Source: a secondary endosymbiont of Heteropsylla cubana (GTDB lineage Bacteria; Pseudomonadota; Gammaproteobacteria; Enterobacterales; Enterobacteriaceae). From it: a DNA stretch of 64,000 bases. The stretch spans positions 620,001-684,000 of the forward strand of contig NC_018420.1 in the NCBI RefSeq assembly GCF_000287355.1, read 5' to 3'. Numbering within the stretch: the first letter of the stretch is position 1; every line of letters starts with the position of its first letter. The translations under genes were made by a program, and so were the position numbers. Below, in pieces: positions 40,081-46,408 of this stretch. The notes beneath the pieces are model-generated. The model worked only from the letters and a program-made list of their open reading frames with translations, was not told the origin of the DNA and ran no database searches.

Positions 40081-40110
40081 TAGAATTCTGATCATGAAAT
40101 CAGAATTCTA
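40081..40110 (-). terminator. Strong hairpin at the end of the pheST-ihfA operon
   Basis: TAGAATTCTGAT (40081-40092) and ATCAGAATTCTA (40099-40110) form a perfect 12-base stem with a six-base loop, about 62 bases after the ihfA stop. No T run follows on the transcribed strand, so it may protect the mRNA 3' end more than terminate. Confidence 0.55.
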
Positions 40111-42887: not shown

Positions 42888-43871
42888 TTATTTAAATTGC
42901 TTAAGGAAACGCAAATCATTTTCAAAAAAAGCACGCAAATCAGTAATACCGTGACGTAGCATGGTTAGTCGTTCGACTCCCATACCAAACGCGAAGCCAG
43001 AGTAGATATCTGGATCTATACTAACATTGCGTAAGACAGTTGGATGTACCATCCCACATCCCAACACTTCTAGCCAACGACCATCTTCTCCTAATATGTC
43101 TACTTCGGCAGAGGGTTCGGTAAATGGGAAATAAGACGGACGGAAACGTATCTTTAGTTTTTTTTCAAAAAAAATATGCAGAAAATCATGTAATATTCCT
43201 TTTAGGGCGCTGAAACTAATATGGTTATCAACCATAAGACCTTCCACCTGATGGAACATTGGTGTGTGTGTTTGATCGTAATCGTTTCGATATACTCGAC
43301 CTGGTGAAATAATTCGAATTGGAGGCTTTTGTTCCTTCATAGTACGAATCTGTACTCCTGAAGTCTGAGTTCGCAACAGCCGATTAGTATCAAACCAAAA
43401 GGTATCATTATCCGTCCGCGCGGGATGATAAGGAGGAATATTGAGCGCATCAAAATTATGGTAGTTGTTTTCAATTTCTGGCCCAGTTATTACTGCAAAA
43501 CCTAATTTTTCGAAAAAACATTCAATGCGTGAAATACTTGTCGACACTGGATGAAAACTTCCATTTCCGATGAAGCGTCCTGGTAGTGAAACATCTAACA
43601 TTTCAACAGAAAGTCGTTTTTGTAGAGTTAATTTTTCTATTGTTTGTTTTCGATCGGTTAATGCTTTTTGAATCGTTTCTTTTGCTTTGTTAATGATAAG
43701 ACCTAATGGTGCTCGTTCGTTTGCTTTAACATTTTTTAATATTTTAATTTTTTTATTAAGCAACCCTTTTTTTCCTAAATATGCAATTCGAATTAGGTCT
43801 AAAGTTTCAAGATCATTGGATCTTTCGATATCTATCTTAGCCTTCATAATAAAATCTGTAAGATGTGGCAT
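42888..43871 (-). CDS. pheS: Phenylalanyl-tRNA synthetase, alpha chain
   Basis: Catalytic alpha chain of PheRS, 327 residues, exactly the E. coli length. Class II motifs are visible: motif 1 around [17 protein letters not shown], motif 2 with RVYRND, and motif 3 [18 protein letters not shown]. Residues 1-90 form the tRNA-binding coiled coil. GAGGGA lies upstream of the ATG. A 1.1 kb leader separates it from the attenuator-like hairpin, far longer than in E. coli. Confidence 0.97.
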
Positions 43872-44930
43872 TATTTCCCTCTTATTTTTATCGCAGATAA
43901 CATCTCAAGAATTGGGTAAGAGGAACATTGATTAATTAATTTCATTATATAAAAAAACACTATTAAGCAGTTCCTCTTAAAAGATTTATTTTGACATGTT
44001 ATGCTCTTATATTTTTTTTATATATATGCTATGTATGTTAAATATTTTATCTTTAGAATCTTTAATGATATGCAGTTTTTCTTGTTAATTTTATGTATAT
44101 TTTAACAATGTTGATTATTAACTGGTCTATTTTTATTATATTGATTCTTAAAAATATTGACCTTTTTCTTATCAAAAAAATAGAAGTAGTTTGCTTTGTA
44201 TGTCGGCAATATATCCTAATATATAACAGGTATAGCAAGCATTACTAATTTGAGGTGTTTAATTCGTTATATTAATCTTATAGATTAGATCGGTGCATGG
44301 TTTTGATTTCCGTTATAGCTTCAGATGAAGAGGTGTAAGTTAAATCTCATAAGTTATATTATATAGAGCTATAAACTGCATATAATTTACAGTTTTTTTA
44401 TCCTATCTTTAGAATTATTTTAATTTGAATTTTTTTTGCATATTTTGTTAAAGATTTTTTAATTTGTTGTTTGTTTTTAACAATTTGTTCGATAGGATTA
44501 TTGTAGTTATTATGTTTATAATTATTTCAATTGTTTAAATAAGGTATTATGTCATAAAGTAATCTAAATATTTTATTAATAATTATTTTATATTTAAACA
44601 AATTAATTAATAAAATTACATAGATAAAATTAGAATTAAATACTTGTTTAATCAATAAAATAGTACTCGAAATTTGCATTCGATAGACTAACGAGTCATT
44701 TTTTTTGTGTAAGGGTTTCTTCTTTTTATTTCACGTAGGGTTGATCAATTTAAGCGTCATAGTCAATTACAGATAGATTTTTATAAAATCTTCTAGATGT
44801 TAATTAGACTACTTGATTCCTCTATTCTTTTATAAAATATACTGTGAAATTGCTTGATGTAATTAGTTTCTAATTTTCTAAAAAGTGAATTATTTAAAAA
44901 GACCTTGTTGTTTATAACTTTATTTCTATG
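43872..44930. other. Extended pheS leader region
   Basis: About 1.06 kb between pheS and the attenuator-like hairpins; in E. coli this interval is near 0.2 kb. No gene, repeat or RNA is recognisable. It may be inserted or expanded spacer. Confidence 0.4.
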
Positions 44931-44968
44931 AAAAAACCTCAATCTATATTAAAAGAGAGAGGTTTTTT
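44931..44968 (-). terminator. Second hairpin with T tract in the pheS leader
   Basis: AAAAAACCTC (44931-44940) pairs with GAGGTTTTTT (44959-44968). On the rplT-to-pheS strand the 3' arm ends in six T residues, as in an intrinsic terminator. It directly follows the attenuator-like hairpin. Confidence 0.45.
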
Positions 44969-44977
44969 AGTTTTATT

Positions 44978-45013
44978 AACTAGTAAGCCTCCAATTAAGG
45001 AGGCTTACTAGTT
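44978..45013 (-). promoter_or_regulatory. pheST attenuator-like hairpin
   Basis: AACTAGTAAGCCTCC (44978-44992) and GGAGGCTTACTAGTT (44999-45013) form a perfect 15-base stem with a six-base loop, between rplT and pheS. The E. coli pheST attenuator carries the same AAGCCTCC/GGAGGCTT core at this place. The Phe-rich PheM leader peptide is not clearly preserved: the nearest frame, MYRFRSYISACFRYINKKEK, has only two Phe codons and runs into the stem. So the hairpin may now be a simple terminator/processing site. Confidence 0.6.
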
Positions 45014-45184
45014 TTTTCCTTTTTGTTAATATATCGAAAACATGCAGAGATATAACTTCTAAAACGATACATAGAGAGTGGCATACGTATATTTTTATTA
45101 CCTTTTGCAGTATAGTAAGCAATTTAGATAGTATTGAAATCGATAAACAAAAGGAATTAAATTTCTAATTTTTGAAATGTTTTC

Positions 45185-45541
45185 TTATGCCAAGGCACTT
45201 TTAGCTGTATCTGTTAAAACAGAAAAAGCAAGTGTGTCAGATATAGCTATATCAGAAAGTACTTTACGGTCTATTTTAATAGAAGCTTTTTTTAAGCCAT
45301 TAATAAATTGACTGTAAGAAATATTGTTTTTATGGGCTGCAGCATTAATACGAGTAATCCACAGTTGACGGAACTGACGTTTCTTTTGACGACGATCACG
45401 ATAAGCGTATTGACCTGCTTTGATAATCGCTTGGAAGGCAACGCGGTAAACACGTGAACGAGCTCCATAATAACCTTTCGCTTTTTTCAATATCTTTTTG
45501 TGACGTGCATGTGCTACAACACCGCGTTTTACGCGCGCCAT
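45185..45541 (-). CDS. rplT: 50S ribosomal protein L20
   Basis: L20 is an early assembly protein of the large subunit and, in E. coli, the repressor of the rpmI-rplT cistrons. It has 118 residues, exactly the E. coli length. The basic N-terminal extension [20 protein letters not shown] and the globular ALRS-type C-terminus are intact. AGGAG precedes the ATG. It lies 44 bases after rpmI in the infC-rpmI-rplT operon. Confidence 0.97.
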
Positions 45542-45859: not shown

Positions 45860-46408
45860 TCATGCCTTAGTGTGTTTTTTAGGTACGAGAACCATGATCA
45901 TCTGTCGACCTTCAATTTTAGAGGGGAAAGATTCAATTATTGCTAGTTCACTCAGATCATCGCGAACGCGTTTTAGCATTTCGATACCACTTTGTTGATG
46001 CGCCATTTCACGCCCTCGGAACCGGAGGGTAATTTTAGTTTTATCGCCGTCTTTTAAAAAACGAACAAGGTTGCGTAGTTTTACTTGGTAGTCGTTTTCA
46101 TCGGTACCAGGACGGAATTTAATTTCTTTCACTTGAATTATTTTTTGCTTTTTTTTCTGTTCTTTACTTGATTTACTCTTTTGATACAGGAACTTTCCAT
46201 AATCCATTATTCGGCAAACTGGTGGTTCGGCGTTAGGGCTAATTTCCACTAAATCGATGCCAGCTGCTTCTGCTTTTTCGAGTGCTTCTTTTAAGCTGAC
46301 AATACTAATTGGTTCTCCGTTAATACCTGTGAGTCGAACTTCTGAGGCTCGGATTTCTTTGTTGATTCGATTGGGTCGTGTTGATTGAACTCGTTTTCCA
46401 CCTTTAAT
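45860..46408 (-). CDS. infC: Translation initiation factor IF-3, AUU start
   Basis: IF-3 blocks subunit joining and checks the start codon. The first ATG in frame is deep inside the protein (46249). The real start is the ATT at 46406-46408: it gives (M)[20 protein letters not shown], the full family N-terminus, and 182 residues (E. coli 180). GGAGGGA sits ten bases upstream. The AUU start, by which IF-3 represses its own synthesis in E. coli, is thus preserved. The N-domain, linker and C-domain ([13 protein letters not shown]) are complete. The ribosome-binding site overlaps the thrS stop codon, three bases before the ATT. Confidence 0.96.

Follow-up and report, generated by a model that had tools for sequence, protein, structure and literature searches.

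Is the hairpin between rplT and pheS in a secondary endosymbiont of Heteropsylla cubana still part of a pheST attenuator, and if not, what does it do? The genome is a single contig of 1,121,596 bases, and the stretch analyzed here (the window) covers 64,000 nucleotides of it, from 620001 to 684000; positions below are those of the window. The E. coli K-12 gene order thrS-infC-rpmI-rplT-spacer-pheS-pheT-ihfA is also present here, and the rplT-pheS spacer extends from 43872 to 45184 (1,313 nt; Table 1). The original prediction, made from these letters, was that the attenuator stem had been kept, the leader peptide eroded, and the leader expanded to 1 kb. Among 118 relatives, the closest PheS proteins show 68 to 69% identity (L090 to L093). 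Genome-wide comparisons used a sample of 384 kb, consisting of the window and sixteen 20-kb stretches (L169 to L184). In infC (45860 to 46408, minus strand), the reading frame stays open back to an ATT codon at 46408, which lies 54 codons before the GTG given in the ORF list; E. coli infC starts at AUU, and this unusual start seems to have been retained.

Table 1. Features in and around the rplT-pheS spacer (window positions)
Feature	Position	Strand	Basis
rplT (L20), last gene of the thrS-infC-rpmI-rplT unit	45185..45541	-	ORF; same gene order as E. coli K-12
Shine-Dalgarno-like AAGGTAAT, near the relatives' distance between pheM ribosome-binding site and stem	45097..45104	-	Sequence and alignment; chosen after the fact, suggestive only
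29-codon ORF, placed at the pheM offset but with 2 Phe and implausible as a leader peptide	44995..45084	-	pheM profile rank 39 of 5436
H1, perfect 15-bp stem closing a 6-nt loop, derived by sequence comparison from the pheST attenuator terminator; T-run on the + strand only	44978..45013	-	Folding, pattern search, comparison
H2, 10-bp outer stem AAAAAACCTC/GAGGTTTTTT, T6 on either strand, candidate terminator	44931..44968	-	-13.4 kcal/mol; shuffles
A+T-rich spacer from H2 to pheS, without recognizable gene	43872..44930		~21 to 24% G+C over most of its length
pheS, first gene of pheS-pheT-ihfA	42888..43871	-	ORF

The stem at the center of the original prediction, a perfect 15-bp helix with the E. 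coli GCCTCC core, is present as H1. Its folding energy on the pheS strand is -26.8 kcal/mol (z -9.1), and none of 200 shuffles folds as well. Nothing else in the 384-kb sample, whether 50-nt fold or perfect stem, is as stable as H1 (-25.8 as scored in the stem scan, where the runner-up reaches -14.9). The pattern GCCTCCN{3,10}GGAGGC has a single occurrence in the 1,121,596 bases, at H1, which excludes a dispersed repeat, and its GCCTCC/GGAGGC core is identical to that of E. coli (L119). On the pheS strand the G+C-rich stem is present, but a U-tract directly after it is absent. The site of the relatives' T-run is occupied by TTAATAAAA, and this new 3' flank is fully complementary to the left one, which gives the 15 bp. 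Neither the missing sense U-tract nor the second hairpin, H2, figured in the original prediction. Of 119 gene 3' ends in the sample, just 6 have a stem of at least 7 bp, two of them with a U-tract (shuffles: mean 0.41, maximum 3), so strong hairpins are rare in the sampled genome. Four of these six stems have no U-tract, and stems may thus outlast U-tracts genome-wide. The second-strongest perfect stem of the sample, one of 12 bp at 40081 to 40110 and without a U-tract on the gene strand, sits 61 nt past the ihfA stop, where the pheST-ihfA unit ends.

In free-living-size relatives the junction has two hairpins: T1, just after rplT, and T2, the attenuator terminator, ~90 nt past the pheM start codon. 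T1 is found in 34 and T2 in all of 36 loci, a set in which one genome (G045, from another family of the same order) is counted twice (L103, L143) and one genome is of 2.2 Mb (L111). T1 is missing from the window. H1 matches T2 in position, core, and spacing, and on this sequence evidence it is a descendant of the pheST attenuator terminator, as had been proposed. A T2-type stem of at least 12 bp appeared in 0 of 1,000 shuffles of the 300-nt leader. Counted by eye, the leader from AAGGTAAT to the stem measures ~100 nt here and ~106 nt in the nearest relatives (e.g., L090). Because of this distance and the complete core, H1 rather than H2 is probably the T2 orthologue; the reverse is conceivable. 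With the E. coli pheM-pheST attenuator (RF01859, Phe_leader), the locus shares the placement between rplT and pheS on their strand, the GCCTCC/GGAGGC terminator core, and a similar distance from a Shine-Dalgarno-like site. Unlike it, the locus has no Phe-rich peptide, no antiterminator, and no U-tract after H1, whereas it has an additional second hairpin and a stem lengthened to 15 perfect bp. The RF01859 covariance model gives 25.6 bits on the pheS strand and 26.9 on the other, below the gathering score of 55; E. coli and four nearer relatives score 60.6 to 75.

The claim that the leader itself had grown to 1 kb is not supported, given its length of ~100 nt. While pheS does begin more than 1 kb from the stem (1,106 nt), the surplus DNA lies downstream of the stem, between H2 and pheS, outside the leader proper. 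If every ORF of at least 90 aa is taken as coding, a rough rule, then 47% of the 384-kb sample is coding and the median spacer is 834 nt; 70 of 154 spacers exceed 1 kb, and 1,313 nt falls at the 64th percentile, so the rplT-pheS spacer is ordinary for this genome. Searched against the whole genome, the spacer gave eight weak matches beyond itself, the best (E 3e-7) being its own reverse strand, and five short spacer translations showed no Pfam family above the cut-off; on these results, a repeat or a dead gene was rejected. A reduced relative (L210, genome G195) has a rplT-pheS spacer of 1,360 nt with neither T1 nor T2.

The sensing half of the attenuator is gone. As predicted, a Phe-rich leader peptide is not evident: no such ORF was found and no candidate stands out. 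The 29-codon ORF in Table 1 ranks 39th of the 5,436 M-started 13-mers in 384 kb against the pheM profile. A possible leader-peptide relic, MPLSMYRFRSYISACF, aligned by eye with pheM of L090 (7 of 16 residues identical), was rejected because of that rank, a different alignment by MAFFT, and the lack of a DNA-profile match. The DNA profile, built from the leaders of nine relatives, has no match on the window leader, and 85 of 1,000 shuffles do match. The antiterminator has also decayed: between the left arm of H1 and the 70 nt upstream, the best pairing reaches -4.0 kcal/mol (z +1.5), in contrast to a median of -21.6 kcal/mol in free-living-size loci (36/36 at -10 or lower). Among the 22 reduced genomes tested, the median is -7.4 kcal/mol, with 4 at -10 or lower. 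Neither the Phe-codon run nor the competing antiterminator that define a pheST attenuator is thus found in the window. With the antiterminator and the U-tract of H1 gone, attenuation in the known manner is no longer possible; sequence and predicted folding together indicate that H1 cannot respond to charged tRNA-Phe and that the switch is dead.

H2 is likewise T2-type and starts 9 nt past H1. A hairpin like it occurs in none of 2,000 shuffles of the spacer, and on the pheS strand it has the anatomy of an intrinsic terminator, a stem followed directly by a U-tract (T6). Its outer stem contains only 4 G-C pairs, and T6 is itself paired with A6; its strength as a terminator is uncertain. H1 and H2 are not a tandem duplication, since Tandem Repeats Finder reports none and 598 of 2,000 shuffles align equally well.

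The case for selection on the hairpin comes from relatives. The reduced set comprises 82 genomes of the same family, of 2.1 Mb or less and with rplT next to pheS, a subset of the small genomes found. Under the main rule, which tolerates G-U and demands pairing of five core pairs, a T2-type hairpin stands at the rplT-pheS junction in 35 of the 82 (19 of 51 genera; related genomes are included and are not independent events), whereas 100 sets of shuffled spacers give a mean of 0.15 and a maximum of 2. A stricter earlier rule, allowing no G-U in four core pairs and applied to 62 of the 82 genomes, found stem plus U-tract in 22 (shuffled mean 0.14), one of them with 5 or more Phe; its 39 free-living-size loci also contain G045 twice. 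The sense U-tract is present in 33 of the 35 T2-bearing reduced genomes and the upstream A-run (an antisense T-run) in 18. At least 5 Phe within 8 residues of an ORF are seen in 1 of the 35 (3 more have 4), compared with 34 of 36 free-living-size loci. The comparison demonstrates, at the sequence level, the same outcome across many symbiont lineages: terminator kept, sensor lost. The arms of T2 vary compensatorily: both sides have changed, with G-U pairs as intermediates. At the first core pair, 28 of the 35 have G-C, 5 A-T, and 2 G-T; at the third, 19 have T-A, 15 C-G, and 1 T-G. The percentage paired is uninformative because the search rule demands core pairing; the pair types are nevertheless real. 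Retention in the reduced relatives supports the view, already put forward in the original prediction, that the hairpin is likely under selection.

This retention takes different forms. In the genera g83 (5/5 genomes) and g77 (3/3), T2 is the recognizable element of spacers of ~90 to 180 nt; in g77 (L155, L227, L228) its stem is 21 to 22 bp long and the surrounding spacer is otherwise scrambled. Most T2-bearing relatives have stems of only 7 to 12 bp with a sense U-tract. The T2-type stem is absent from 47 of the 82 genomes; 17 have T1 only, 29 T2 only, 6 both, and 30 neither, so the boundary is dispensable. T1 and T2 are not strict alternatives, the trend having a Fisher p of 0.08 with genomes that are not independent; symbionts tend to keep one of the two formerly stacked terminators (p 0.08). 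Loci were dropped when the stretch contained no rplT (L130 of G015, L146, L147, L150), when genome size fell between the classes at 2.4 to 2.5 Mb (G063, G039, G116), when the genome came from another family (G114, G058), or when pheS was truncated (G126, G169). An initial scan of 80 named loci included none from small symbionts, and most of these were not used further.

The best reading of these data is an attenuator reduced to a constitutive boundary between the rplT unit and pheST, with a putative function as terminator and/or processing hairpin. We lean, with limited confidence, toward H1 being the ancestral attenuator terminator whose sensor decayed and whose hairpin was kept as the boundary of the rplT and pheST-ihfA units. 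The Phe-rich peptide and the antiterminator arm have decayed, ending the response to charged tRNA-Phe, and H1 would have been kept to mark off thrS-infC-rpmI-rplT from pheST-ihfA. Transcription coming from rplT would pass H1, which is very stable, before reaching H2, where the U6 tail could end it. Termination at H2 would give the message a 3' end under hairpin protection, H1 acting as a strong 3'-end hairpin. Expression of pheST would depend on read-through or on promoters within the A+T-rich spacer; for E. coli, an alternate promoter located ~45 bp ahead of pheS has been suggested (PMC4082710). The bias toward the sense U-tract and the position of the hairpin suggest that transcription between the ribosomal-protein unit and pheST-ihfA is ended or thinned without a sensor. 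The genes rho and pnp are both present in this genome, so Rho-dependent ends are possible. What counts against a boundary terminator is that H1 has no sense U-tract, counter to 33 of 35 relatives. A tentative extension, which we think possible but would not favor, is that the hairpin was re-used as a sensor-free boundary in many symbionts, and that here and in g77 the stem then grew into a long perfect double-stranded RNA acting by RNA processing or 3'-end protection, with the free U-tract dispensable.

The main rival to the boundary reading, unlikely in our judgment, is processing by RNase III, in which a cut in the double-stranded RNA would separate the rplT and pheST messages and set their decay. 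Cutting of the hairpin would explain why stems lengthen (15 bp here, 21 to 22 bp in g77) and why a free U-tract is dispensable; long perfect stems do occur here and in three g77 species, and rnc was found here and in all eight of the other genomes searched. A stem of 15 bp is, however, a short substrate for RNase III, and the 7- to 12-bp stems with a sense U-tract in most relatives have the anatomy of a terminator. There is a precedent in E. coli, where the enzyme cuts the pheM termination structure and initiates decay of the downstream message, according to the portion of the report drawn on here (PMC5371410). The homologous hairpin thus has a second role there as a processing site; in our locus the stem is perfect, longer, and without a leader peptide, and cleavage is putative. 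H1 might also be a neutral relic, a stem not yet decayed whose perfection came from templated (hairpin-copying) mutation in the absence of selection. Outside the ancestral core, the extended part of the stem is also perfectly paired, which is what a templated event would produce, and T2 has been lost in 47 of 82 relatives; but H1 is intact amid randomized surroundings, relatives retain the hairpin far above chance, and its arms change compensatorily, which makes a neutral relic improbable.

Slightly less probable still is an antisense insulator, with H1 on the + strand stopping stray spacer transcripts before they enter rplT-rpmI-infC-thrS in antisense. The run TTTTCCTTTTT after H1 on the + strand forms the only strong terminator-like site of that strand in the spacer, and H2 also has T6 on the + strand. 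Yet there is no + strand gene, promoter-like matches number 90 against a chance expectation of 81.7 (sd 8.6), and relatives keep the U-tract more on the sense side than on the antisense side. Hardly tenable is a working attenuator, with the 29-codon ORF as a cryptic leader peptide and H1 and H2 as a four-arm switch. The ORF does start at offset +100, close to where pheM starts in relatives (mostly +97 to +125), and an antiterminator duplex of -9.9 kcal/mol with H2 is possible. Masking the left arm of H1, however, leaves H2 intact (P 0.999) and fails to bring out the antiterminator (0.006 expected pairs), which rules out the four-arm arrangement; 38 other 13-mers in 384 kb outrank the ORF on the pheM profile, and it has two Phe codons.

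The literature search, which left most subscription journals outside its scope, found nothing joining pheST attenuation with endosymbionts, or pheM, pheST, and rplT with one another. The consulted portion of a study of Buchnera spacer terminators (PMC3164680) describes a comparable situation, intrinsic terminators conserved at orthologous places in a reduced genome, and within that portion there is no mention of pheS, rplT, or attenuation; here, the kept hairpin is the part of an attenuator left without its sensor, a pattern seen in 19 genera. For Buchnera genes, one paper states in the passage drawn on that leader sequences are absent and attenuation is unused (PMC3091783), and the excerpt used of another does not touch on retention of the pheST attenuator hairpin (PMC3571970). 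Taken by itself, the finding in the window is modest, an ordinary 1-kb spacer in which only the stem is exceptional. The comparison dissects the death of a regulatory RNA: peptide and antiterminator are lost first, and the terminator goes last and is retained in many lineages. Which parts of RNA regulation remain useful once regulation is lost has thereby become a testable question. Regulation need not survive where a symbiont genome still has a hairpin of known regulatory descent, and the wider pattern, in which terminators outlive their sensors, is the part worth following.
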